A model generated the notes under the pieces. That model did not search any database. It worked only from the letters and a program-made list of their open reading frames with translations, and was not told where the DNA came from. Of a DNA stretch of 64,000 bases, positions 18,701-61,957 are shown piece by piece. Positions within the stretch are counted from its first letter, which is position 1, and every line of letters starts with the position of its first letter. The translations under genes and the position numbers were made by a program. Source of the stretch: Patiria pectinifera (lineage: Eukaryota; Echinodermata; Asteroidea; Valvatida; Asterinidae); contig CM057149.1 of the NCBI GenBank assembly GCA_029964075.1, forward strand, positions 5,528,465 through 5,592,464, read 5' to 3'.

Positions 18701-21700
18701 TAATCCCATACCATAGTACTGCCTTGCAGACAAGTGACACTCAGTCCGCAAAATTAGGCAACCAGCTAAAGTTTCATGTTCATGAAATTTTGATAATTTC
18801 TGGTTATTTCTGGATAATTTCTTGTTACTTTAGTGGAGTGCTGTGGCCTCGTGGTCTTGAGCATTGAACTCGTGATTAAGTGGGTAAAGCTGCAGGGTGT
18901 GGGTTCGAGTCCAGCCTGGGGGTGTGGTGCGTGTACCCTTGGGCAAGGCACTTTGTCACTCATTGCTTCTCTCCACCCAGGAGTAATGTAAATGGGTACC
19001 TGTGAGCGCAGGGTTATTGTGATTGAATTTAGCTGCTTTGCACCGAAACAGCATAGTGCTGTGGCCTCGTGGTTAAGGGATCTGGATTCGTGGTCTGCCG
19101 AGCGGGTAAAGCTGCAGGTTGTGGGTTCGAGTCCAGCCTAGGGTCATGGTGCGTGTGCCCTTGGGCAAGGCACTTTGTCACTCATTGCTTCTCCCCACAC
19201 AGGAGCAAATGGGTACCTGTGAGGGCAGAGATGGTTATGTGATTGATTTAGCTTGCTTGTGCCTAACAGGCTGCATCAAGCTGTATACTCCCCAGGGAGC
19301 TGAGATGGTATTTGGAATGTTTCATGGGTCCAGTGATCAGGGGTAATAATGATGTAGCGCCTTGAGCACCAGTCCTATTATTATTATTATTACAGCGCTT
19401 TAATTTTAGTTCAAAGCACTACATCTGTAAGGACACAATACTGGCTAATTTTAGGGTGGAACTCAATGTTGTCACTCCTGATAACTAAATAGTTGGGTAC
19501 AGTCTGTTTTGGTGGTTTAACATGTTAGGTACACTTATGAACGGATAAATAAAAATTTTAAAAATCCACAAATTTCATTTTTAGTAGTAAAATTCTTGAT
19601 TTTTTGTTGAAAATTTACCTCGAAATACCACTTAAAAACGGGACATAACAAGTAAGCCTTTTTGAATGAATTAAAAACACGCTTACAGTTTATTTCTTCA
19701 GATGAATATTGTATTGAAGTTGTTAGAAATGGAATGAATTTTACAAATACAGGTAACCTGTATTCAAAATATTTCTGGTTTCTGCACAGGGACGCCAGAT
19801 AAACTATTTAACGTAAGTTACGTTTGGTGTCCACCTATTTAGCATATTTACTGGGGTCTGTATAAACCCTCCTTAGTACATCCTACAGTAATTTTAGATG
19901 ATAGAGTCTTCAGAAGCATAATATCAGTTCCTTTATACACAATGACATGCGTTTTTAAACTTGACCTTTCCTTAATTCAGATTTAAGGGTGGGTCACCAC
20001 TTTGGTGTCCATTTTTATTCAACATAATGAATGCCTAATTCATTATGTGTTAGGAGGGAAGGCCAAATACTCTAACAGTGATGTTGTACTCTACATGTGT
20101 ACCAATATATCTAATCACAATTAGGACATTTGATCTACATAAAAAAAATCAGTCATTCTACACTACCACGATAAATGGTGTGCACTAAATGGTGTAACTA
20201 ATGTAAGTATAAAGCTACAGGGGTAAAAAAGTAAATAATAGCTAAGTGGTTTTGAAGAGCACATTACTTTCTAAGGAGTATCTAGCAGTTTAAAATATTT
20301 ACTGTGATATCCAGAGCACTAGGAGTACAAATGCCATGCATGTGATTTAACGTTAGTTACAGCTGGACACCAAAGTTGCATTAGTTACAATGTGCACTTT
20401 GTATAATACGATAGTTAATATCTACAAGCAACAACTTCCCAGTGGAATATTGCTGTTTATTAGTTAAAATGGGTCCCTTTGGTAGTATGGAGAACAACAA
20501 TTTAATATCAGTTTTGGGCTCAATAATAATATAAAGTTATGTAAATGAAGGCCTATGTGGTGTCCACATGTAACTTACGTAACAATTTGATACAGAGATT
20601 GCCAAAAGAGGTCCATATAAGATCGTGAAAGGAACATAATGTTTAATGGATGAATTTCCCTCTGAGGTCCTTACTGTGAGACACTGTGGTCATAAAATTT
20701 TCAATTGATCTGCTATTAAAATGGTTTAACAGCTAAATCTCTCATTTTATTTAACGTTAGTTATATATGAATAGCTTATATTGCAATAAAGAAACTATAA
20801 TAATCTCCATTTCTGACAACTATGGTCTGGTAACAAGCAGGAAGTGGACACCATGTAACTAACGTTAACTATCACCAACATAAAGCTGCTAATAAAGGAA
20901 AGATGCTTTAAAACTTATCTTCTTATTATTATTTTCTATTGACGGAAGGCCGGTCGAGCATTACAAAAGGGAAACAAAATTAATACAACCAATTTTATTT
21001 TTGATCCCCATGTCCCTATTTTATTCTCCAGTATTGTGTTCTTACACACATGTATATAAGTACCTGTTGTTATTATTATTATCAATAATGACTCTCAGCT
21101 GTTATCTTGCTGGGCAAGTACGCATGCGCACTACTCAGAAACAATAAAAAAATAATCAATATAGACACTGCGCAAGTACCCCCTCAATGGTTACAAAGGG
21201 AGAGGGTTGGGGGAAGACCATTGGGAGGGACATTCAAATGCATTGCCGACAATGCCTGACGCTGACACGAAGATGCCCATGGTTATGCACATTGAGAATA
21301 GAATAATTAGTCGTGTGTACCAGTGGGCACAAGCAGTGTGTTCCTTTCACTGGAGTTTTTTAAAGTGGTCAAAGAACGCAATTTGCTGTTCGTGTACTTA
21401 GTCCATAAATTAGACCAAATTTAATTTTTGAATTTTTGATGGCCTATGGGTTTTGTAGAATTGATCGGTAACTTGAAAATGTTTGCTTCTTTAAGAATCT
21501 ATTTTTTTTTTCTGAAAGCCTCCGTTCATCAGCCGAGTTTCTCTGATTGTTTCTGTTTCTCCCGTCGCAGTTCAAAGTTTTACGACGAGGATGGACATAT
21601 AGCCCACGAGTTCTACATTGAAATCCCCGGGTCCAAGAGAAGACGTATGAAGGCAGGAATGATGAGAATATACACCAATCTTAGACCACAGGTACCGTAC

Positions 21701-24612
21701 CCCCTACCCCCCATATCCCCCCCCCCCCAACCAATCCCCAACTTTCTTCTGGTACATGTACTTGTATGTGTACATTTTTCATGTGTTGTGTTCGTAGAAT
21801 TTGCATCTGGGTATTTCACAAATCATAGGTTAAATGATATTCTCAAATATAAAAGTACATCTATTTAGAATGATGAAGGGCAATTCCACACCAAAGTGGA
21901 CATGACACCAAAAAATTCAAATACATGTGATTTAAACAAATTTGGCATCAAATGAAAGCTAAAAGTCTATATTTTCAAGATTTGAAGTCGGAATTTAATT
22001 TTTTATACATTTCGGTACCAAAAACTAGGATTATGTAATAATCCTGTTTTAATCCTAAAAATGTGATTAATAGTGATATGAAAGTATTCTACCAATAGAC
22101 ACACAAAAATATGCACTAATGCCATCAGTTTCTGTCATGAGGAAGTATTGGTCTTGAAAAACCGACTAAAACTTGTTTTTAACATTTTGCGTAATTTGTT
22201 TCGCTTCAGTGACTTCTAATATTTCAGCCTTCGAAAATGTCCTTCCGTTACCGAAAAAATACATATTTTTAATTTATTTTTAAAACTTGCGGTATGAATG
22301 CATTGAAAATTATTGTGCAAAGCAAGTTTAGGTAGGCCTTCAATATGACATTATAACTGGCACTGCTGTACTTCTCGTTTTTAATTACAATTAATTAAAT
22401 CACGTCCTTCCGTTACCAAATTGGTAACGGAAGGACGGTAACGGAAGGACAAATCGTATTTTTATCAAGTGTTACGACATTTGCGCTCATGTTTGAATAA
22501 TGAAAATCACTGCAAATACATGCATGCATAATGAGCATTGAAAGGACATTCATGTGACCCACCTTCACAAAAGCGGGATAAGCAGGGCAAGGTGTTTATT
22601 ACAATTTGAAGGCAGAGGCATGTACAACATGTACAATGTACATGTACATATATGCCGATGTACCAGTACTTGTACATGTATGGAGTTATTGCAGAAAATC
22701 AAATCATAAAGTTGCTGCCATCAGCATTCGTGGACAATAGAGAAAGATACGAATTCTGTGAAGCCATTCCAGAAGCAAATTAAGTCAAAAATGAGATGGC
22801 AGAAAGTACCGGTACTTTGGGGCACTTTCATTCAATTTACATGTGTAAGACATGTGAGGTGCAGTCTTTGACAAATTATGCCCAAGTTAACAACTTCAGT
22901 TTGGATGTTTATACATTAATTGTTACTACTCTAAATCATTGTAATTTGATTTCAAACATTGATTTTAGAGTTCAATTAAAAGCAACACCTACCTGAAGCC
23001 ATCAGTTCTACCGGTAGATGTTTTGACCTTAAATGTACATGTAGGCTGGTTGCCCCCCCCCCCCCACCCTTTAGGTAAACCTTTGAACCTACCGGTATTA
23101 TTATTAAAAGTTGTTGGTGAACATATAACCAATATACTCAAGAGTTCAAATATTGTGTATTTAAACTTTTAAGGATTGAGGTGATGGGTTTGAAGTCAAT
23201 TTCTGTAGTAGTCCTGTGTTCGTGAATTATGTGTTTTGGGTTGTTTTCGTTTTTCTTTTGTTATCATTAATTAGCAGTCTTCTATCTTTATCTCAATAGT
23301 TTCTTGGGTATAATTATTTATGCCAGGTCTGCATATTGTTGATTTCACATTCAGTTACACATTTAAGCAATTTGTTTCACTTGTATAATTAGTGTAAATT
23401 CACATTTTGTAAATGCTATAATTGAGTAAACCTTTTGTCCTTCCGTTACCGTCCTTCCGTTACCAAATTATAATCTGCTTAAAACATTGTAATTATATAA
23501 CCGAAACACTTAAAGTCAAATGAAAGGTGCTATAGTATAGATAAAGCTTCAGGAATTCCATTTCCTACCTTTAAAATATAATTGCCCCATAAAATTCACA
23601 GAGTTTTTGCAAAATACGAGTAAGTTGGAAAACCCTTGTCCATTTTACCGTCCTTCCGTTACCGACCTCATGAATATTCATAATTCATAAACGAGAGGCA
23701 TTCATGCCCCCCAAAAGTGTGGAAAATGAAAGTAGCATTATAGCAATACAATTGTGACATTTGTTTGCTGTAACTATGAACAGTGTCTGTGATACACACA
23801 TTTGAAATTTTGTTTAATGAGTGAAAACGTCCTTCCGTTACCGTGGAATTGCCCTGAAGGAGCACATTTCAAAATCCAAGGTGTAGACAAAAGTGAGTCT
23901 ATTTAAGAAACATCCATGTTCAGGTTTTTTTCACTCATTTCCCATTGATATTTTAAAAAAAAAATAATAAATGTGAAATTGGTGCGCCCTTCAGCAGTTT
24001 TTTTTCTAGAAAATTGAACACTCTGATATTGAGCTTTAATATGATACAAGATAACTAGAAGGTATGTTTATGTCATTAATCCAAACGTACCTGAATCCAT
24101 CAAAATCCACACCCCTGTTTCGGGGGATTTCGGCGGATTCAGGATACCTCCATATTGCACGAACTGGGGGATTTTGATGGATTCAGGATTGTAACCCTTG
24201 CGGAACTGCAGGATTTTGATGGATTCGGGATCCCTCTGTATTGAGCTGTTGGGGGACTTTGGCAGATTCAGGATTTCAACAGATTTACTCCCGCCTAACT
24301 GGAGGATTCTGATGGACTCACTGGCCACCAACATTTTTTTTTTGCATGGCAAAATTGATGGATTTTGGCGGATCAAGGACACTTTCTAGTAAATGAGCCC
24401 AAGGGTTAGTGTTAATTGCTGTCTCCAAAACTGCAATTTCTGCACCATGTTGTAGAGTATGAACCGAAGAGGCAAAACTTTAACTTTGTTTCAAATTTTG
24501 GTGGCATGTTGTGAATTTCATTGTCATTTATCTGTTTGTTCTTCAGGAAGAAATTACCCTGGATCCACCCAGACTTCGTCCAGACCTACCAGTGGTCCTG
24601 CGCCAAGTATGA
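12610..24612 (+). CDS. TUSC2: Tumor suppressor candidate 2 (FUS1), 3 coding exons
   Basis: Small N-myristoylated protein of the TUSC2/FUS1 family. In vertebrates it is linked to mitochondria, calcium handling and tumour suppression (family knowledge). Exons join 12,610-12,764 (phase 2), 21,571-21,691 (phase 0) and 24,547-24,612 to give 113 aa; the human protein is 110 aa. Visible family features: MGGKSS at the N-terminus (Gly2, the myristoylation context); VNPFVHTRK before the first junction, like the PPFVFTRR of vertebrates; SKFYDEDGHIAHEFY at about 52-66; then a basic stretch and IYTNLRPQ; and a C-terminus LDPPRLRPDLPVVLRQV corresponding to the family's LDHPRI.VDFPV end. Both introns are GT-AG with phases that restore the frame. 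The start has G at -3 and G at +4. The introns are large (8.8 and 2.9 kb) and repeat-filled. The assignment rests on matching motifs in the right order across all three exons. Confidence 0.93.
12863..13063. repeat. tRNA-related SINE copy, family shared with 25,100
   Basis: Contains GGTGGGAGGAAAA, TTCTGGGGAAAACCCACGG and CCACATATTGGCCCA, followed by GGATTCAAACCTGGGTCACAG. The last is the reverse complement of a B-box-like T arm. The same blocks occur in the same order at about 25,105-25,282. Confidence 0.65.
14160..14528 (-). repeat. tRNA-derived SINE (same family as 19,055)
   Basis: Read on the - strand: AGTGCTGTGGCCTCATGG, GGTTCGAGTCC (B box), TTGGGCAAGGCACTTTGTC, CTTCTCTCCACCCAGGAGTA, CAGGGAGCTGAGATGG, AGGGGTAATAATAATG, with an ATT-rich tail near 14,170-14,190. 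It is the most complete copy of this family in the window. Confidence 0.85.
15339..15441. repeat. 53-bp unit duplicated in tandem
   Basis: CAATTTAGTTCAAAGTTTTG...CTCATTCA is present twice, starting at 15,339 and 15,392, virtually identical. A recent tandem duplication of non-coding sequence. Confidence 0.85.
16901..17250. repeat. Dispersed repeat, copy 1 (others at 27,540 and 30,290)
   Basis: Blocks such as GAAGCAACGAAAGTGCTCAAAATC, GGGACATG.TTCTCATTC, ATGTC.CGCACTGAACCG and TGACCTTCTTTTATT recur in the same order at 27,550-27,810. The first part also recurs at 30,290-30,360. A multi-copy element without recognisable termini. Confidence 0.6.
17251..17915. repeat. Tandem repeat, three units of about 220-228 bp
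   Basis: Units start at about 17,251, 17,474 and 17,702 with CTTCAAAA.GACGCATGCC. Each contains CAACAATAATTT.GTCAATTACATTTTGGATAGC and GAGCCCA.TTTGC. On the - strand each unit keeps a partly open frame (FAAIQNVID..IVEK) that is interrupted differently in each unit. A related single unit lies at 27,790-27,930. Confidence 0.8.
18437..18655. mobile_element. MITE-like element, CCAGGGGCGGATCTGGG end
   Basis: Left end CCAGGGGCGGATCTGGG. The right end, CCCCTGAATCCAAGCCTG, is a degraded inverted counterpart. G and C homopolymers lie between. Ends of the form CAGGGGCGGATC are typical of short non-autonomous hAT-like elements (recalled). Confidence 0.45.
18833..19052 (+). repeat. Truncated tRNA-derived SINE
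   Basis: Same head and middle as the SINE at 19,055 (GTGCTGTGGCCTCGTGG, GGGTTCGAGTCCAGCCTGG, GGGCAAGGCACTTTGTCAC), but it stops after the ATTGTGATTGAATTTAGC block. It abuts the second copy head to tail. Confidence 0.8.
19055..21090 (+). repeat. tRNA-derived SINE interrupted by a 1.6-kb element
   Basis: SINE sequence runs 19,055-19,426 with an A-box-like head, the B box GGTTCGAGTCC, the conserved middle and ATT repeats. The tail resumes at about 21,046 (ATATAAGTACCTGTTGTTATTATT), matching the uninterrupted tail of the copy at 14,160-14,230. The 19,427-21,045 element therefore inserted into the SINE tail. Confidence 0.7.
19427..21045. mobile_element. 1.6-kb non-autonomous element with reiterated motifs
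   Basis: Terminal inverted repeats GTAAGGACACAATACTGG (19,427-19,444) and CCAGTATTGTGTTCTTAC (21,028-21,045). No ORF of note. TTAACGTTAGTTAC-type motifs, usually paired with GGTGTCCAC or its reverse complement, occur at about 19,808, 20,347, 20,559, 20,751 and 20,844-20,869 in both orientations. No transposase is encoded, so mobilisation in trans is inferred. The family was not recognised. Confidence 0.7.
21571..21691 (+). CDS. TUSC2: TUSC2 coding exon 2
   Basis: Acceptor CCCGTCGCAG|T. The exon completes the split Ser codon and encodes 40 residues including FYDEDGHIAHEFY, the most conserved TUSC2 block, then a Lys/Arg-rich segment and TNLRPQ. Donor CACAG|GTACCG, phase 0. Confidence 0.92.
21878..23854. 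mobile_element. 2.0-kb element with eight GTCCTTCCGTTACC motifs
   Basis: Termini GGGCAATTCCAC (21,878) and GTGGAATTGCCC (ending 23,854) are perfect inverted repeats. They are flanked by TGAA at 21,874-21,877 and 23,855-23,858, a likely 4-bp target-site duplication. The exact 14-mer GTCCTTCCGTTACC occurs in + orientation at 22,239, 22,404, 23,437, 23,451, 23,650 and 23,829, and in - orientation at 22,423 and 22,437. The last + copy abuts the right terminus. There is no long ORF. A non-autonomous transposon, with the 14-mers as candidate transposase or host-factor sites, is inference. A related end lies at 56,366. Confidence 0.8.
24080..24390. repeat. Degenerate tandem repeat of GGATTTTGATGGATTC type
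   Basis: Five or more imperfect copies of GGATTT.G..GGATTCAGGAT at irregular 50-65 bp spacing. Open frames on both strands here are products of the repeat. Confidence 0.6.
24547..24612 (+). CDS. TUSC2: TUSC2 coding exon 3 with stop
   Basis: Acceptor TTTGTTCTTCAG|GAAG. It encodes 21 residues, EEITLDPPRLRPDLPVVLRQ plus Val, then TGA at 24,610-24,612. This aligns with the C-terminal block of the family (LDHPR...DFPVILYEV). The 3' UTR and polyadenylation site are not determined. Confidence 0.92.
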   Translation, partial: EEITLDPPRLRPDLPVVLRQV

Positions 24613-30883: not shown

Positions 30884-32984
30884 CGCATATAAAAAAAAAA
30901 ATTAAATTTAAAAAATGTGTCCACGGGCCTACTTTTTTTCAAACCACCTTCAATGATTGCCATCTTTTGATCGAAACCATTTCTGGCAGAGTCATTTCAC
31001 AGTGTATTTGGAACCAGCCCTATCTTCACTTTGAGCAAGGATTTTCTCATCAAATCGGTAGTTGCGTTTCTGGGTAATGACCAACATTCCTACTTACCTT
31101 TAAAGGGTGGGGGTTATCCTGCACCTGCCGCACTGTGCATCAGCCATATTACACACATGTACATAAACCTGAGATCTAATACACCGTGCCCTCTGGAGAC
31201 ATGCACACAATAGGGAACAAATGATTGTATACGTCTCCACAGGGCAATTTCTATAGATGAATACGTCTCCACAAGGTTTTCACGAAATAGATATATGGAT
31301 TTTACTCAAAAATTAGGAATTTCCAAGATGGTTGGATTTGTCGCAAATGGAAGAGTTTTAGAAAAGGGATATAAAGTCCGAATTTCAGCCAAGGAAATTA
31401 ATTCTGGTTAAAATAAGAGCATTTTGAATCTACACTTTCAAACTTGAAAACTTCGCTACACGAGAACGAAGAAATGTCTTCACAAGGATACAAATTTCTG
31501 TATGCGAGTACTGACTCATGCTTTGATAGAATCATTGTTTACATTGAAAGAAGTCACGAATCATGCTGATTTAATTTACTGACTCTCCGACTCTACGTGC
31601 TCAAGTGGATGCTACTTCAAGCCAGTATATTGGCTCTTCAACAGACAGAGAATGATAGTGACCGTTTTAGCCGATTTGGGGCTAACTTTGACAGATATTT
31701 TTGTTAAAAAATGAGTTTGACAGAAAATTTGACAGAATGGATTTTTTGGGCAGATTTCTGGCAGAATTCTGCAAAAATGGTTGACAGAAAAAAATTGCAA
31801 ATTTGAAAAAAAATGGAACATTTGTTTCAAAAATCTTCCATCTATTCAAACAAACCCTTGCATAATGGGACAGGTTGGCTGGTCTAGGTGCTGAGGTTCA
31901 CTTGGAACAGGACTGGGAATTTTTGACGCAACCGTGTTTTGCCTGAAATTTACGCAATTTCATAACATCTTTATGTGACTATAGATTGTTTATAATGTAA
32001 TCTGAACCTTAATTAAGGCAATACTGCAACATCTGCATGTATTTTTAAGTGTTTGTAGTGTATTTCGAGTAAGTCTGGGGAATTTGGCAGATTTTTGATG
32101 TATGTGACAGATTTTCGAAGGGCATTTAGCAGAATTTGGCCATGACCTTACGGTCACCCTGCAGAGAACGATATACAAGTATCAATTCATTCACCAACTG
32201 TGGCTGATGTTACCATATGAACCTGCTGCTTTTGATTTTGTCTTTTCAATTTTGTTTTTTTCGGTTTTGCCATATTCAAATTCCTGAGAATCTCATCAGG
32301 AATTATTCCCAAGTGCTGTTTTTTTTCTGAAAGCAGGACTGATCTCATATGTCATAAGCTTATTTGATGTTTTAGCTTGATCAAATTGTGGAGAATAAGC
32401 TAGGTTGAAAGTCAATATGTTTTACTTTTCCAGTGGTCAGATATTAACCAATGATGTATTAGATTTTGAGGATTCCATGACGTGTGTTTCTTGATGTTCT
32501 ATGCATTGCCAGTATGGGCTGCTATTACCAGTATTGTTTTGATGTTTGTTATTCATACCCAGTGATCTGTACTGTGTGCGCATGTTGTAATTTAATCGTT
32601 TGATGGACAGCACAGACAGTTTGTTTATATATTAACGTCATTTTTTTCAAATTTATGAGTTCAGTGTACATGTATGTGTAAATGCAAGGAAATTTTATCT
32701 GGAGAATTGATTAACAGATATTTGCTATCGATGAAATGTGAAAGTGAAACTTCAGAATGGATGTATTAGATGTATTTAAAAAACAGATTAAATCAAATAA
32801 AATTAGGATATGATTTGCTTGTTTTTATGAGGTTAAGATCATGATGAATAAAGCATTTTTATATTAATGTTACATACTTCTACTTTTGTTGAAGGCATAC
32901 ATTTCATTATTAAAGATGTTGGATCTTATTATGTAAAGGAAGTATTTCTCATTAATTCATCATTCACCGTTCTGCCAAACCACC
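30884..32984. other. No gene recognised
   Basis: AT-rich. TACGTCTCCACA.GG occurs twice near 31,227-31,275. TTTGACAGAAAATTTGACAG-like low-complexity sequence lies at 31,680-31,820. A cluster of AATAAA/ATTAAA hexamers at about 32,780-32,860 could belong to a transcript 3' end, but no matching CDS is identified. Confidence 0.45.
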
Positions 32985-33940
32985 CTGTCTGATACTCCCT
33001 GTACCGCCCCAAACCACTCTGCCTGTTACTCCCTGTACTGCCCCAAACCACCCTCCCTGTTACTCCCTGTACTGCCCCAAACCACTCTGCCTGTTACTCC
33101 CTGTACTGCCCCAAACCACTCTGCCTGTTACTCCCTGTACTGCCCCAAACCACTCTGCCTGTTACTCCCTGTACCGCCCCAAACCACCCTGCCTATTACT
33201 CCCTGTACCACCCAAAACAACCCTGCCTGTCACTCCCTGAACTGCCCCAATCCACCCTGCGTGTTACTCCCTATAGCGCCTCAAACTGCCCTGCCTGTTA
33301 CTCCCTGTACTGTCCCAAACTGCCCTGCCTGTTACTCCCTGAACTGCCCCAAACCACCCTGCCTATTACTCCCTGTACCACCCCAAACCATCCTGCCTGT
33401 TACTCCCTGTACTGCCCCAAACAGCCCTGCCTGCCTGTTTGTACTGCCCCCAAACCATCCTGCCTGTTACTCCCTGTACTGTCCCAAACCACCCTAGCTG
33501 CCTGTTTCTCCCTGTACCACCCCAAACCATCCTGCCTGTTACTCCCTGTACTGTCCCAAACCACCCTAGCTGCCTGTTTCTCCCTGTACCACCCCAAACC
33601 ATCCTGCCTGTTACTCCCTGTACTCATGGGCGTCGCCAGGATTTTTTCTAGAAAAAAAAAAAAAAAAAAAAAAAATGCTTGTCAATGTATTTCTCTTTAT
33701 CAGTTTTATTTATCAGTTTAGACATTTGCCCTCATTTCATTTCATTAACTTCTTAACCACTTTGTCTTTTTTTTTTTTGTTTTTTTTTTTTTTTCCTTAT
33801 TTTTTTTTTTTTTTTTTTAAAGTGCCCTCTCCCCCCGCCCCCCCACCTGTACTGTCCCAAACCACCCTAGCTGCCTGTTTCTCCCTGTACTGCCCCAAAC
33901 CACCCTGCCTGTTACTCCCTGTACTGCCCAAACAACCCCG
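32985..33940. repeat. 34-bp minisatellite, interrupted by a MITE
   Basis: Tandem units of about 34 bp with consensus parts CCCTGCCTGTTACTCCC and TGTACTGCCCCAAACCA, at 32,985-33,624 and 33,846-33,940. Some units are shortened or altered, e.g. CTAGCTGCCTGTTTCTCCC. The same unit forms the larger array in WASHC1 intron 1 (54,740-55,905). Long open frames on both strands are a by-product of the repeat. Confidence 0.95.
33625..33845. mobile_element. hAT-like MITE inserted in the minisatellite
   Basis: Begins CATGGGCGTCGCCAGGA and ends in a C-rich run. It is flanked by an exact 8-bp duplication CCTGTACT (33,617-33,624 and 33,846-33,853) taken from the minisatellite unit. An 8-bp duplication fits hAT-type transposition. 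The interior is a long A run and long T runs, able to form a hairpin. The same left end occurs at 45,828. Confidence 0.8.
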
Positions 33941-34579: not shown

Positions 34580-35070
34580 CCATTGTCAGTCGTTGCCACA
34601 GATTGACTAAGATTAATTCCTTCTTTCCGGAACTCGACCCTGAAATTTGAAAATGATTTCCTCTCAGACCAACCGCATTCACTTACGCCCAGTCATCTCC
34701 CCCCCCCCCCCTTGATAATCTGACTCAGTTTGACAGATGTCAAACCATTGGAATTGGTACTGAAATTGTGGAGAGTTGATTTTTCCCAAAAGGCAGATTG
34801 AGGAATTTTATGACGGATGTCAAACCTTGAATTGGTACTGAAATTTGTGGTACGTTAATTTTTCCCAAATGGTAGGTTGAGGAATTTTATTGACTCGATG
34901 ACAAATGACCCCTGATGTTTCATCTGCAGATTTAGGATTTGCGTATTTTTCAGAAGCACCATTTTGTGGTGGGGAAATGCTTGTCCTTCCCCTTTATAGA
35001 CAAAATTCGTTTTTGTCACCCAAATGCATTTCACTGCTTACATGTGCTGATATTTGTTCATGTTGTTATT

Positions 35071-39907: not shown

Positions 39908-40642
39908 TTACTGAAATATGACTTTTTCGTGATACTTAGTGAAATATTCGCCTATTTCGATAGCCGAAATATCTGAATCTTCGAAAGGGGTTTTGTCGCA
40001 AAGTGCTGTGGTTTGAATGCCATTTACATTAGCCAGGCCATTGGAGGTGCGTAAAGCGACTTTTTCTTGCTTCACGAGTGGTCGGAGTTTTGTTATTTTT
40101 ACCCCGGCACCGTCAGTAGCCACCATTTTATCACTCACTTTCAGATACATAGCGGGTTTCATCCAAAGCGCGCTGCTGTCTTGAACCAGCATCAGGTGGT
40201 TGGCAGTAACGTTGATCGCAACCTCCCGGCCGCGATCCAGCCAGCCGACTTCCACAAACGTGAAGTTGCCCTTTTCTACTGTGATGCCAGTGACGACGGA
40301 ATTGGGGCCAAGGGCGTCGCCAGCAGCCAGGGCCTGTATCGGAAGATTGCCCAGCGGAGTTTGCACCACGGCGTTCGTGTCGAAGCACGTTATCGTCGCA
40401 ATGCCGCCCATCAGTACCATACAAGCCGACCAGCTCGTGGCACCCGCTTCAAGGATCGGTATGATGGCCGCAGCTGCAGCCCCACCCGTAAGAGCGGTTA
40501 TGGCAGCTATTCCAGCAGCACCTAAACCTAGCCATATGCCGCATATGGCTCCTGCCAGAGGCGCTATTGCAACGCCCGAGTTTACTGGGCTGCATGAAAA
40601 GATCAACGTTGCCAGCAAAGCCCCGAAGATGTGACGTTTCAT
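39908..40642 (-). CDS. Secreted Hint-domain (hedgehog/intein-type) protein
   Basis: Uninterrupted 244-residue coding exon. Residues 1-22 look like a signal peptide (MKRHIFGALLATLIF...). Residues 23-85 are Gly/Ala-rich and hydrophobic, with Cys34 and Cys74. A Hint autoprocessing domain follows at about 86-215. Cys86 in ITCFDTNAVVQT is the expected nucleophile; PIQALAAGD is the usual block after it; T146-A-N-H149 is the TxxH motif that activates the scissile bond; and LANVNGIQ (203-210) matches the last strand block of Hint folds. Family knowledge predicts an N-to-S acyl shift at Cys86 and release of residues before it. Only about 30 residues follow the domain, so no hedgehog-type sterol-recognition region is present. 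It is not a Hedgehog: there is no signalling domain. The composition is more GC-rich than the surroundings. An acceptor (CTTTCCTGCAG) 16 bases upstream of the ATG implies a spliced 5' UTR. The identity of the N-terminal domain is unknown. Confidence 0.82.
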   Translation of the reverse strand: MKRHIFGALLATLIFSCSPVNSGVAIAPLAGAICGIWLGLGAAGIAAITALTGGAAAAAIIPILEAGATSWSACMVLMGGIATITCFDTNAVVQTPLGNLPIQALAAGDALGPNSVVTGITVEKGNFTFVEVGWLDRGREVAINVTANHLMLVQDSSALWMKPAMYLKVSDKMVATDGAGVKITKLRPLVKQEKVALRTSNGLANVNGIQTTALCDKTPFEDSDISAIEIGEYFTKYHEKVIFQ

Positions 40643-41960
40643 TGTTTCAAATAAACACCTGCAGGAAAGCGAAACAAAATGTTTGTGTTTTTGTGGGATA
40701 CTTTAAATTTCAGATTTTTTCCTTTCACCGACGTTTATAACACTGTATGCTCAGTGTTTTACTGAGAGCTTGCGAAAAAATTCATAGGCTTACTCGGGTG
40801 GGACTCGAACCCACGACGTCCTGCTTACTAGTGCAGATGAGTAAGCAGGAGGTCGTGGGTTCGAGTCCCATCTGAGTAAGCTTATGAATTTTATCGCAAG
40901 CTCTCCCTCTTACGGTAAAAAACTGAGCATACAGTGTTATTATACGTCGGTCAAAGGAAAAAAAACCTAAAATTTAAATCACATGTCTCCGACACAAAGT
41001 ACATCATTTGAACACGTGTGATACTTATTGTAAAATGAAATGCGTTCTAATAAACAACAATAACGATAAAAAAAAATAGAGCTTCAGTATTATTTTGTTC
41101 AATCACAAATACAAGGTGTTCGGAGTGTACTGACGTCATCAATAAAATCAAAACTGTGCGAATATCTTTTGTAGGTAAGGAGTTATGAATTTTTGAAATA
41201 TGAAAATTTGAATTTATGTTATTCGACACATGATGAGGTAATCATGACGTCAACCGTAGCGCCTAAGGCGCTTTGCTGAACAATGCATGTGACTTGGGTC
41301 GGAAGAAATCATCGGCGAAATTTTCCATGGAGATGTTTCAAATTGTAGCACTAGCGTTTGCAACAACATATGAAGCTGAAATTCGGAATATACTTAGATG
41401 ATATAAGTGTTCAATTGCTCGTGGAAATAACAATGTTGAGAATTTCCTAGAAATATATATAAATACAGAGATTTGGGGAAGTTTTCGAACGATTTCTTCC
41501 AGACTTGAAGGTCAGCTATATCAGTAACCAGTATTGAGGTTTCGGCATCGATGATGGCGATTTTTTTTTCACTGACATGAAGCTAAGAATTTCTTCTTCC
41601 GTTATAATTTAACTTTTCAATCATACTGTGCATATTTTCTGAGAAACACAACGTTCAAAAGGCCATGTTTTTTGTGTGGTGCATAAATTTAGTACTGCTC
41701 TGCTATAGCGTCTAAGTACGTAATCGGATTAGCTTTGCTAACAACGGCAGCCGCTTTGCCTTAGCAACCACATGACTGTGTATACAGGTTACTGCATCTA
41801 GAGTTATACTGTTATATTTCTATATTTCAGAGTGAAACGAGGGGAACTCACCTGGTGCGTTATACGGATAGGTTCTTGGAGGTTCTCTCTGAGCTGGGGT
41901 GAGGTGTCTGTCAGAAGAGCAAGTGGACGATCTGTGGCGATGAAGCAGGCTTTATATTAT
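40643..41960 (-). promoter_or_regulatory. Probable promoter, 5' UTR exon and intron of the Hint gene
   Basis: On the - strand: ATAATATAAAGCC (41,960-41,951) is a good TATA box. About 25-30 bases downstream a transcript could start near 41,925. The exon would end AACGCACCAG|GTGAGT with a consensus donor at 41,851-41,850. The intron runs to the acceptor CTGCAG ending at 40,659, and 16 bases later comes the ATG in GAAACAATGA. The first exon holds no ATG. The combination of spaced TATA, donor and acceptor supports a transcribed gene, but it is inferred from motifs only. Confidence 0.55.
40701..40982. repeat. 280-bp palindrome with tRNA T-arm-like arms
   Basis: CACCGACGTTTATAACACTG... at about 40,728 pairs with ...CAGTGTTATTATACGTCGGT at about 40,932-40,953, and pairing extends outward to TTTAAATTT on both sides. 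Near the centre both arms carry TGGGTTCGAGTCCCA (+ at 40,857, - at 40,800), a B-box/T-arm match, with CTTACT.GT at the loop. It probably derives from a tRNA-like repeat inverted on itself. It sits inside the predicted first intron of the Hint gene. Confidence 0.75.
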
Positions 41961-48426: not shown

Positions 48427-48917
48427 CCATTGTCAGTCGTTGCCACAGATTTATTAAGATGAATTCCTTCTTTCCGGAACTCGACCCTGAAATTTGAAAA
48501 TGATTTTCTCTCAAACTAACCGCATTCACTTACGCCCAGTCATTCCCCCCCCCCCTTAATAGTCTGACTCAGTTTGACAGATGTCAAACCATTGGAATTG
48601 GTACTGAAATTGTGGAGAGTTGATTTTTCCCAAAAGGCAGATTGAGGAATTTTATGACGGATGTCAAACCTTGAATTGGTACTGAAATTTGTGGTACGTT
48701 AATTTTTCCCAAATGGTAGGTTGAGGAATTTTATTGACTCTGATGACGAATGACCCCTGATGTTTCATCTGCAGATTTAAGACGTGTGTATTTTTCAGAA
48801 GCACCATTTTGTGGTGGGAAATGCAAATCCTGGCTTCTTGTCCTTTTTAGTCAGAATTCGTTTTTGTCACCCAATGCATTTCACATCTTACATGTGCTGT
48901 TATTTGTTCATATTATT

Positions 48918-53486: not shown

Positions 53487-54163
53487 TTAATCCCAGTCAT
53501 CTTCTGAGTTGGCCGTGTTTGATCTATTCCTACTTGGATGAGTAGGCTTAGGCGGTGGTGGTATCATAGCTGATAGTTTGTCCATGGTAGAGGGTGCGTT
53601 GCCATTCATCTTGGTGTCCTCTGATGATCCGCCGCCGCCTCCGGCCTGCCGCGTGCCGGAGATTCCCTTCCGTCGTAGCGACAGCTTGGATGCCAGGTCG
53701 TCCATCAGGCTCATGCCCGTCACCGCCTGGCTCTGCTTCTTCTGCTTCTTCTCAATCTTACGCTCCGCGGCGTTGCGTAGCATGGCCTTCCCCGAGCCGC
53801 CCGCCATGCGGATGGATTCCATCAAATTGGCCCGGCCGTCTTGCTTCGCCGGAGCCGCTGCCGGGACGGACTCCTGGGGAGGAGGAGGTGGTGGGGGTGG
53901 GGGAGCACCACCCCCACCCTCAACACCCGGTGGGGGAGGGGGTGGCGGAGGGGGAGGTGGAGGGGGCGGAGCTGCACCACCAGGAGGAGGAGGCGGTCCA
54001 CTCTGTGGGGCAGGTAAGGCTGGGAGATCCTGTGCAGGGGCGCTGGGGAGGCTGTCCATACCAGATTCTATGACGCTGGGTAGCTCTGGGACGTGACTGC
54101 CGGGTAGGGAGGGTGCGATTGAGGGGCCCAGATCAGCACTGTAGCTCAGGTCATCGGCAACGC
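53487..54163 (-). CDS. WASHC1: WASHC1 coding exon 3 (poly-Pro and VCA)
   Basis: Acceptor TTTCTTTTGATGCAG|GC (54,163). It encodes residues 246-469: the end of the conserved YSADLGP block, two poly-proline runs separated by a Gly-rich linker, then WH2, connector and acidic tail, with TAA at 53,489-53,487. The high GC content comes from the proline runs and explains the long antisense frames. Confidence 0.97.
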
Positions 54164-57152
54164 CTGCATCAAAAGAAACCGTGTGGATTAGTGTGTATTT
54201 GTTAAAGCACTTACTTCTTTTGATGCTTTTCTTCTTTTTTTTTGTGAAAGAAGCATGTAATATTCAAATTCTTTGCTTCTAATCAAGACTTAGTCGGAGG
54301 ATCAGACATGTCATAATTAAATGGGGACAAATCTTTTTGTTGTCTATCAAAGTGAACAACTTTTATATTGCTATCAAAAAGCAATAGAAAAATATACTTT
54401 TTGCGTGAAACTTGAAAATAGAACAAGTTTTCGGATAGCAACTTTAAGATTGATTCCAAGTATGAGTTGATGGCTGTACCTGGTAGATCTGGCAGGTAGT
54501 TAGGCACGTCAATCTCAGGTACATCTCCCAGGTCTGGTACATAGAAGTAGTTCTCCATGCCTTGCCTCTCCATCTGCTCTCGTTGAGTGATGGACATGGG
54601 CGCGGCTCCTATCTCCTCCTGTTCCTCCTCAATGGCCTTCCTTGTCTTGGTGACAGCTCCCAACGGGTCAATCATTGTGTATTTCTTGTACCTGGGAATC
54701 CCCAAAACATACAAGAAATGAGAAATGATTCACCAATATAGTCCCAGTACTGCCCAGAACCACCTATCTGTTATTCCCAGTACCGCCCTGCCTGTTACTC
54801 CCTGTACTGCCCCAAACTGTCCTGCCTGTTACTCCCTGTACTGCCCCAAACCACCCTGTCTGTTACTCCCTGTACTGCCCCAACCACCCTGCCTGTTACT
54901 CCCTGTACTGCCCCAACCACCCTGCCTGTTACTCCCTGTACTGCCCCAACCACCCTGCCTGTTACTCCCTGTGCTGCCCCAACCACCCTGCCTGTTACTC
55001 CCTGTACTGCCCCAAACCACCCCGCCTGTTACTCCCTGTACTGCCCCAAACCACCCTGCCTGTTACTCCTGCACTGCCCCAAACCACCCTGCCTGTTACT
55101 CCCTGTACTGCCCCAAACCACCCTGCCTGTTACTCCCTGTACTGCCCCACACCACCCTGCCTGTTACTCCCTGTACTGCCCCAAACCACCCTGCCTGTTA
55201 CTCCCTGTGCTGCCCCAACCACCCTGCCTGTTACTCCCTGTACTGCCCCAAACCACCCTGCCTGTTACTCCTGCACTGCCCCAAACCACCCTGCCTGTTA
55301 CTCCCTGTACTGCCCCAAACCACCCTGCCTGTTACTCCCTGTACTGCCCCACACCACCCTGCCTGTTACTCCCTGTACTGCCCCAAACCACCCTGCCTGT
55401 TACTCCCTGTGCTGCCCCAACCACCCTGCCTGTTACTCCCTGTACTGCCCCAAACCACCCTGCCTGTTACTCCCTGTACTGCCCCAACCACCCTGCCTGT
55501 TACTCCCTGTACTGCCCCAAACCACCCTGCCTGTTACTCCTGCACTGCCCCAAACCACCCCGCCTGTTACTCCCTGTACTGTCCCAAACCACCCTGCCTG
55601 TTACTTCCTGTACTGCCCCAAACCATCCCACCTGTTACTCCCTGTACTGCCCAAAACCACCCCGTCTGTTACTCCCTGTACTGCCCCAAACCACTCTGCC
55701 TGTTACTCCCTGTACTTTCCCAAACCACCCCGCCTGTTACTCCCTGTACTGCCCCAAACCACCCTGCCTGTTACTCCCTGTACTGCCCCAAACCACCCTG
55801 CCTGTTACTCCCTGTACTGCCCCAAACCACCCCGCCTGTTACTCCCTGTACTGCCCCAAACCACCCTGCCTGATACGCCCTGTACTGCCCCAAACCAGCC
55901 CAGCAATTGTATGGTTTTTGTGGATTTATCAAGGAATAAATTAATTTGTCCCACGGGTGCTAAAGGGTTACCAAAACATTGGGACTAGATTTGAGAAGGA
56001 ATTTCATTCACTGAATAACTATCACGCTGACAACTGTTGGTGCACCAAGTATCAAAAATCTTTGCTTGATCTGAATATCCCAAGACACTTTCTCAAGCAG
56101 CAATAAATTTGATGGCAAGAAACGTGATGGAAATGTTTATTTCACACCATTGAGATTTACTGATCAGATTCAAAACGGCTCATAAAAAATCCAAACAAAA
56201 GCAAAATCCATAACAAAAGGAAGGAAAAAAAGAAGAAAAATCCCACCTCACTCGGAGCAGAATTCTCTATTTCTGCACTAACTGATGTACTTTCTCAACT
56301 GAATTTTGCCAAAGTAAAACAGCATTGTACCTCTCAAGAGTCACACTACATTAAGCTATTCATAAGGGCAATTCCACGGTTACTCACGTTACATTTTTGA
56401 TGTACGTTTGAGTTTCCTTGGGCTGTAATTACCTTACTAAAAAGGTTTAATAACTGTTATCCCCATGGCAGATAGAGTAGACTTAGACCTACTTTGCGTG
56501 TTGGGGTGATGTAAATTCAATATTGGGTGTTGCCTTACACTGACATTGGTGAAAGGCAAAACTCATTATTTATCATACAATATTAGTGTACGATATTCTG
56601 TATTCTATTCTAGGAATTCCCTATCACTTACGGATTTTCAGTGGTGTTAAACAGCAACAGGGAGTTGATAGAATCCACGTGCTTAGGCAGCCCCCCGAGC
56701 CCTTCCCATGAACTCTGGCCATCCTTGTCCTTACGGACGTTCAACTGGACATTGTAGAACTGCAGTTTCTCCCTCAACGCCCGGCTGTCCAGATTCTGAT
56801 GCTTGCTGATGAGTTTCCTGTGCGGCCGGCGTACCTGGCCAAGGCTTGAGTCCTTGGTGTAGACCGACGTGTACGCCTGGTGGCTGTCCGGCGCCGGGTA
56901 CTTGGCGCTCGAGAAGACCTTGATGGCTTTCCGCGTGCCCTTGATTTTCTCCACCTTGGCTTGGGCCACGTCTATCCTCTTATTGATGCCTTCCAGGCGG
57001 GTGTGGTTGGAGTCAACCTGGCTGATGATGTGATCGAAGACATCGTTGGCTACTTTCTCCATGTACTCCAGAGTGTCGGCGATTTGTTGGATTGTTTCTT
57101 CTCGCCGCAAGTCGGGCTGGATGATAGGGATGTTGTAGACCTGGCCCGGCAT
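53487..57152 (-). CDS. WASHC1: WASH complex subunit 1, 3 coding exons
   Basis: WASH, the nucleation-promoting factor that activates Arp2/3 on endosomes as part of the WASH complex (family knowledge). Exons join 57,152-56,632, 54,691-54,480 and 54,163-53,487 to give 469 aa; the human protein is about 465. The N-terminal WAHD1 region at about 1-170 has [31 protein letters not shown] and [16 protein letters not shown] second conserved block at about 176-265 has [26 protein letters not shown] and [15 protein letters not shown]. Proline-rich runs at about 300-342 are followed by a VCA module: WH2-like [13 protein letters not shown] (about 355), connector [18 protein letters not shown] (about 397-415), and acidic end SEDDWD (464-469). 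Both introns are GT-AG and in frame (phases 2 and 1). The start has A at -3. No damage is seen. Confidence 0.98.
54164..54479 (-). other. WASHC1 intron 2
   Basis: Begins GTACAGCC after ...CTACCAG and ends TGATGCAG. 316 bases, AT-rich, no other feature. Confidence 0.9.
54480..54691 (-). CDS. WASHC1: WASHC1 coding exon 2
   Basis: Acceptor GGGGATTCCCAG|G at 54,691; the first base completes a Pro codon and reading continues [16 protein letters not shown]. It contains [20 protein letters not shown] and ends inside the Gly codon of LPDLPG (CTACCAG|GTACAG, 54,480). Confidence 0.97.
54722..55905. repeat. 34-bp minisatellite in WASHC1 intron 1
   Basis: About 34 tandem units, each CCACCCTGCCTGTTACTCCC plus TGTACTGCCCCAAA, with 33-bp variants. 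Rare variants (TCCTGCACTGCC at 55,071, 55,273 and 55,542; CCCACACCACC; GTGCTGCC) recur about every 202 and 269 bp, showing a higher-order structure from block duplication. On the transcribed (WASHC1) strand the unit is G-rich, with GGGG, GGG and GGG runs. The array ends about 30 bp before the exon 2 acceptor. Confidence 0.97.
55906..56631 (-). other. 5' part of WASHC1 intron 1
   Basis: Donor CC|GTAAGTGAT at 56,631. AT-rich. At 56,366 is GGGCAATTCCACGGTTAC, a single end related to the 21,878 element terminus; no matching second end is visible in the intron. Confidence 0.75.
56632..57152 (-). CDS. WASHC1: WASHC1 coding exon 1
   Basis: Starts [19 protein letters not shown] and encodes 173 codons plus two bases. 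It carries most of the WAHD1 region through NTTEN and ends GAAAATCC|GTAAGT. Compared with human WASH1 the start is a few residues shorter, which is normal for invertebrates. Confidence 0.97.
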
Positions 57153-57601
57153 CTTGATAATCCGGCAGGCGATAGTTCAAGTTCTAAGGTTCTTCTCCGA
57201 TCACAATCTGTCTGGCTTTTCTACTGCACACACTACAAATACAATACATAAAGTTTAAAACTGTTCAGTGCAAATCATTCAAGATTGCTCCAAAAATGCA
57301 AATTACGTTTTTGTAGGTCATCTATGACTATGTTTAGTTTCGTCAAGGTGACGGTGCTAAGGTAGTGAGGTTAGTCACACTGACACTGATGTGACTATCG
57401 CCAATTAATAATATATCACCCGTGTATCGGTTTTCGAGGCATAAATAAAACCGGTACATGGTTGAGGACAATACTAGACGGCCTTTCAAAAAACAATTTT
57501 TGAAAATAATTACATTTCAAATTACCAATGTAACAATGTGTGAAAAGATGATCTTGATGTATAATGAGGAGGAATCAAAAGAATATTTTTAAATAATTCA
57601 T
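57153..57601 (-). promoter_or_regulatory. Probable WASHC1 5' UTR / promoter region
   Basis: Directly upstream of the WASHC1 ATG and before the foldback at 57,602. No TATA box at a fitting distance; AT-rich. No specific element can be named. Confidence 0.3.
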
Positions 57602-59819: not shown

Positions 59820-60030
59820 AGGTTTCGATCCAACTCGGACCCAAACCAACTCGGACCCAAGCCAACTCGGACCCATGCCAACTCGGACCCACTACCAACT
59901 CGGACCCATGCCAACTCGGACCCATGACCAACTCGGACCCACGACCAACTCGGACCCACTACCAACTCGGACCCACAACCAACTCGGACCCACTACCAAC
60001 TCGGACCCATGCATGACCAACTCGGACCCA
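59820..60030 (+). repeat. Minisatellite CCAACTCGGACCCA, left array
   Basis: Thirteen or so units: an invariant CCAACTCGGACCCA followed by 1-4 variable bases (TG, CTA, CGA and similar). Open frames of PTRTH/QLGPTTNSDP type are repeat by-products. Confidence 0.95.
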
Positions 60031-61489: not shown

Positions 61490-61690
61490 GTTGGGTCCGA
61501 GTTGGTCGTGCTTGGGTCCGAGTTGGTAGTGGGTCCGAGTTGGTAGTGGGTCCGAGTTGGTCGTGGGTCCGAGTTGGTCGTGGGTCCGAGTTGGTCGTGG
61601 GGCCGAGTTGGTAGTGGGTCCGAGTTGGCGTGGGTCCGAGTTGGCATGGGTCCGACTTGGCATGGGTCCGACTTGGTTTGGGTCCGAGTT
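61490..61690 (-). repeat. Minisatellite CCAACTCGGACCCA, right array
   Basis: Same unit as the left array, read on the - strand (TGGGTCCGAGTTGG on +), about 12 units with variable 1-4 base spacers and a few substitutions. Confidence 0.95.
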
Positions 61691-61957
61691 GACCTGATAC
61701 CAGCGGTTATTCTTCCTGTTTTCACTGCAATTGTAGGCTGAATATTCATCGTGGATCGTTTTTTACTTCAAGGACATGTGTAATGGTTATTCCAGGCAAG
61801 TTTGGGGTGAGTTGCAGTTGCAATTAGTGTGTAACGGGGACAAAATTCAACATTTTCCAAATTTTTTTTTACTATACTATCGTTTTCGAGAAAAATGAGC
61901 TCCAGCTCTAGATGACAACCCAATGATAAAACTCAGAGCTGGGTAACTCCAGCTACC

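Follow-up and report, generated by a model that had tools for sequence, protein, structure and literature searches.

The stretch of DNA analysed here (hereafter the window) comprises 64,000 nucleotides (nt) of Patiria pectinifera (GenBank assembly GCA_029964075.1, contig CM057149.1, positions 5,528,465 to 5,592,464), and it holds on its minus strand an open reading frame (ORF) of 244 amino acids. We read this ORF, with a probability of roughly 0.6, as encoding a secreted precursor in which a divergent Hint domain would cut before Cys86 and so free a membrane-active peptide. The initial annotation, made from the letters of the window, had placed a self-cleaving Hint protein at 39908..40642 without naming a strand, and the frame is indeed present there. 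Its parts, in window coordinates, are as follows.

40642 to 39908, minus strand: the 244-amino-acid ORF (ATG at 40642, stop codon at 39908-39910)
40659..40669, minus strand: acceptor-like CTTTCCTGCAG, found by eye, 16 nt 5' of the ATG
40577..40642, minus strand: signal-peptide-like residues 1-22 (MKRH plus a hydrophobic stretch), by eye and from hydropathy
40388..40576, minus strand: putative cargo, residues 23-85, 63 amino acids, from a composition count
40307..40387, minus strand: Hint block A, residues 86-112, CFDTNAVVQTPLGNLPIQALAAGDALG, with the proposed nucleophile Cys86
40196..40207, minus strand: Hint block B core TANH, residues 146-149 (Thr146 and His149), from the motif and a profile alignment
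39995..40027, minus strand: VNGIQTTALCD, residues 206-216, from alignment to the Hog end motif
39911..39994, minus strand: C-terminal tail, residues 217-244, 28 residues, from the sequence

It is very probable, to judge from its length and periodicity, that the ORF is coding. It is nested in a 264-amino-acid stop-to-stop frame in the ORF scan of the window, and when 300 sequences of 8 kb were simulated with the local composition, none had a stop-free run of at least 264 codons, the longest being 231. Three-base periodicity is 9.77, a value that none of 260 windows of 732 nt, taken with overlap, attained; it is high in the cargo (5.79) and in the Hint part (7.04) as well, each of which is shorter than the windows from which a 95th percentile of 2.44 was derived. 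An accidental ORF in GC-rich sequence, carrying a fortuitous Hint-like string, would be in keeping with the two antisense open frames (149 and 156 amino acids) that overlap the ORF and with a codon-usage score of -0.06, which gives no coding call even though it is the highest of the ORF's own six frames and was trained on merely 540 codons from neighbouring genes. Such an accident is hard to reconcile with a periodicity above that of every window, a length unmatched in the simulations and a Hint_2 profile match that no shuffle equalled (below), and we regard it as very improbable. The ORF had also been called a single coding exon; one ORF of 244 amino acids is what we see, but its single-exon status is in doubt, given, by eye, an acceptor-like TTTCCTGCAG|G (CAG|G) 16 nt 5' of the ATG and a reading frame that continues open upstream. 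This site is possibly the end of an intron in the 5' untranslated region or in coding sequence.

From residue 86 onward the predicted protein resembles a Hint domain. Block A fits the Hint-superfamily pattern CFxxxxxVxTxxGxxxIxxLxxGD, and a Hint block-A pattern, composed with the ORF in view, was found once in the six frames of the window, at the ORF. His149 lies 63 residues past Cys86, within the range of about 60-75 residues past Cys1 expected for TxxH, a spacing that arises by chance in 2400 of 100000 shuffles (2.4%). In an hhalign comparison with a profile built from eight Hint_2 sequences of bacterial origin, Cys86 and His149 are both aligned, and 0 of 200 shuffles did as well. The profile alignment and motif tests support as Hint-like the domain that the initial annotation had drawn from Cys86 with a TxxH histidine; Cys86 and TANH were correctly positioned there, and the VNG block, given as 207-209, lies one residue earlier, at 206-208. 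The clearest resemblance of the domain, to judge by block A, is to the bacterial Hint_2 family. On sequence grounds we place the domain in the Hint superfamily, matching none of the tested classes over its full length.

Several results weigh against our reading. The hhalign probability for the Hint_2 match is 33.7%, and Pfam Hint_2 (PF13403) scores 14.8-15.3 bits (E 0.027-0.038), under its curated cutoff of 28.4 bits. Taken alone, the B region clearly beats shuffles for one of 12 references, an intein fragment (7/1000 shuffles), and the C-terminal part likewise for one of 12, the reference L004 (4/1000 shuffles). Two AlphaFold runs without an alignment gave no usable fold (mean predicted local distance difference test scores of 37.4 and 31.4) to compare with the all-beta horseshoe of the Hint superfamily. 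The Pfam Hint family (PF01079) has no match in the 244-amino-acid protein at E up to 10, a negative limited by the HMMER filters, which discard most matches above about 0.1; the Drosophila control gave 6.2e-53. A two-sequence Hog profile aligns no better than to shuffles (73/200 local, 34/200 global), and BLASTP against the Hog domain returned no in-register alignment (best E 0.24). To these we add the codon-usage score given above and the residue at position -1 of Cys86, which is Thr where Hedgehog has Gly. This Thr and the extreme divergence of the domain might also signal a catalytically idle Hint fold, with the hydrophobic segment as a membrane anchor and the domain as a binding module; a segment of the composition given below would suit a helical hairpin anchor, and the protein has neither a second nucleophile motif nor a long C-terminal region. 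An idle domain is nonetheless unlikely in our view, as Cys86, Thr146 and His149 are all kept in a domain that is otherwise barely recognisable.

The domain is not recognisably of the Hog/Hedgehog class. The N-terminal part is not a Hedge signalling domain but 63 hydrophobic residues with no Pfam match, and this, along with the absence of a PF01079 match, upholds the earlier statement that the protein is not a Hedgehog. The Hint/Hog profile search proposed with that statement bore fruit on one side, the sub-cutoff Hint_2 match, and failed on the other, with no PF01079 match and a Hog profile at shuffle level. Nearer the C-terminus, VNGIQTTALCD aligns to the Hog end motif VNSVAASCYA, of which it is a possible counterpart; both visual inspection and an alignment program allow its TTALC to be matched to the SCYA-type Cys block, though the C-terminal part alone is not above shuffles for either Hog. 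The candidate for an Asp303-type general base of cholesterol transfer differs by method, being Glu123 by spacing and Asp136 by MAFFT. A diverged Hog-class protein of the nematode and cnidarian kind, with a short secreted N-terminus and a Hog domain whose sequence identity is largely gone and which may still attach a lipid to the peptide, would account for the end-motif alignment and is at odds with the Hog comparisons listed above; we think it somewhat unlikely. Inteins end in His-Asn, followed by Cys, Ser or Thr. By eye, ANVNGIQTTALCDK has no such C-terminal block, and because of this no splicing is expected.

Homologues were sought in the animal's own genome and in bacterial, archaeal, viral and plasmid sequence collections. 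In a protein search of the own genome (613.5 Mb), the gene matched only itself, even with E allowed as high as 10. Among the candidate stretches, 0 of 12 in viral contigs and 0 of 28 in genome contigs were confirmed as homologues, by a scan that reaches close relatives only; nothing was confirmed either when the viral contigs were scanned with the Drosophila Hog domain and with a Zys3-like consensus. Plasmids and phages yielded merely unrelated weak matches (E 7 to 10; one, at E 7, in plasmids). For the 244-amino-acid protein there was no match in PHROGs and one irrelevant weak match in NCBIfam, and PDB searched by sequence gave eight weak matches, none of them a Hint protein.

These searches bear on the idea that an animal lineage gained a bacterial Hint_2 gene that was then given a signal peptide. 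The closeness of block A to bacterial Hint_2, the lack of any second copy or relative found in the own genome, and a GC content of 52% in the ORF region, where the flanking sequences have 35% and 41%, would all fit such an acquisition. However, the native WASHC1 exons of the window are GC-rich too; no bacterial relative came to light within the reach of the scans just described; and the later Hint_2 columns that are invariant in 8/8 bacterial sequences (W38/G40, Y113, H121, G128-E132-S133) are not evident in the ORF in the hhalign alignment. We consider an acquisition quite improbable.

The precursor proposed here would begin with a signal peptide. The signal-peptide-like N-terminus noted in the initial annotation is borne out by eye, and its cut is likely to fall after Ser22, with V-N-S ahead of G23; the -3/-1 rule for signal-peptide cut sites is the basis for this placement. 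The cargo between that point and Cys86, earlier put at about 63 residues, counts 63. Of these residues 84% are A/G/I/L/V/M/F/W/C, the sole charged residue is E65, and Cys residues stand at 34 and 74. Pfam reports no family for it, and the low-confidence AlphaFold model puts its helices at 23-40, 42-65 and 71-87. Our guess is that the cargo may be a membrane-active or membrane-inserted peptide. Two more specific identities were tried and rejected as composition effects, in tests that are weak: a cysteine-rich "Zys3-like" secreted peptide (3814/5000 shuffles align equally well) and an ISG12/Ifi-6-16 core (equalled by 2427/5000 shuffles locally and 3571/5000 globally).

We propose the following course of events. 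The signal peptide (1-22) would send the precursor into the endoplasmic reticulum. In the divergent Hint domain, which runs from residue 86 to about 216, Cys86 would serve as the nucleophile, and Thr146 and His149 would form the catalytic TxxH pair. By homology, Cys86 would attack the carbonyl of Thr85, turning the Thr85-Cys86 peptide bond into a thioester. The thioester would then be resolved by water or another small nucleophile, a sterol handover in the style of Hedgehog being less likely. A sterol-recognition region would, in our judgement, need more room than the 28-residue tail past the domain affords, and we favour hydrolysis over sterol transfer for that reason. The released product would be a nearly uncharged Ala/Gly-rich peptide of 63 residues with two Cys, perhaps with membrane-embedded helices, to go by the low-confidence model. 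In Hedgehog, according to the relevant passages of one paper, C258 performs the first acyl shift and the TxxH Thr and His are both required (PMC9163320). By analogy, self-cleavage before Cys86 is plausible.

If the domain is active, animal Hint autoprocessing would extend past Hedgehog and Hog to sequences that standard family models miss, and would be able to liberate a hydrophobic peptide instead of a folded signal. Further genes of this sort might then be expected to sit unannotated in animal genomes. A bolder proposal is that the gene stands for an undescribed animal Hint subclass, distinct from Hog, Vint, intein and bacterial Hint_2, which releases a membrane-inserting, very hydrophobic peptide, a toxic or insoluble cargo being freed only after secretion; this we consider unlikely.

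Upstream of the gene, and not part of it, lies one further feature.

40702..40978, no strand: foldback element, 277 bp, starting 60 nt upstream of the ATG

The arms of this foldback are 89-96% complementary, each with a tRNA T-arm/B-box-like GGTTCGAGTCCC; neither a tRNA nor an Rfam family was called there. Elsewhere in the window, WASHC1 (WASH complex) exons lie at 53490-57176 on the minus strand (PF11945 matches in three pieces), and an exon of a TUSC2 relative at 21440-21865 on the plus strand (PF15000, 8.4e-14). A near-identical 34-bp minisatellite unit recurs at 32975-33624, 33846-33939 and 54782-55897, its longest array, of 33 copies, standing between WASHC1 exons. A 17-bp minisatellite, CCAACTCGGACCCACTA, occurs at 59830-60030 and 61513-61691 in opposite orientations, 1.5 kb apart, and a near-identical 79-bp unit is found in tandem duplicate at 34731-34890 and 48575-48734, 14 kb apart.

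Among known systems, the Hedgehog Hog domain (PF01079, 1at0) differs from the ORF in that the ORF has no Hedge domain, no PF01079 match and a tail of 28 residues, and inteins differ by their C-terminal His-Asn and nucleophile. The alphaproteobacterial Hint_2 proteins (PF13403) share block A (CFxxxxxxxTPxGxxxxxxLxxGD) and an [ST]xxH block with the ORF, but they are bacterial, have another N-terminal region and carry the invariant later columns that are not evident here. Corals, snails and lancelets have an AIG1/GIMAP GTPase joined to a C-terminal Hint domain, as parts of three papers describe (PMC3723955, PMC7053062, PMC12373286); these are likewise non-Hedgehog animal genes with a C-terminal Hint domain, whereas they contain a GTPase domain and, in the portion of PMC7053062 concerned with snails, AIG genes lack a signal peptide. 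Sections of PMC12803021, PMC13353863 and PMC3879662 served as background only. Among the literature matches listed, we found no Hint domain missed by the Hog model that is combined with a nearly uncharged cargo; those for Hint with antimicrobial peptides held nothing relevant, nor did those for PF13403/Hint_2, where the counts concern the unrelated word HINT2. Closest in layout are the nematode and cnidarian Hog proteins described in 2008, for which the pertinent passages of PMC2362128 give predicted secreted N-termini of 15, 25, 34, 79 and 86 residues. There, Trichinella Xhog3, Xiphinema Shog1, Shog2 and Thog, and Nematostella Nv 140260 likewise combine a signal peptide, a peptide of 15-86 residues and a Hint-type domain, so that the layout is already known from secreted Hog proteins, and the ORF departs from them, as described in those passages, in Hint subtype and in its nearly uncharged cargo. 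A tiny cargo is thus not new in principle; what varies in the Patiria gene is a Hint domain missed by the Hog model, coupled to a nearly uncharged cargo.
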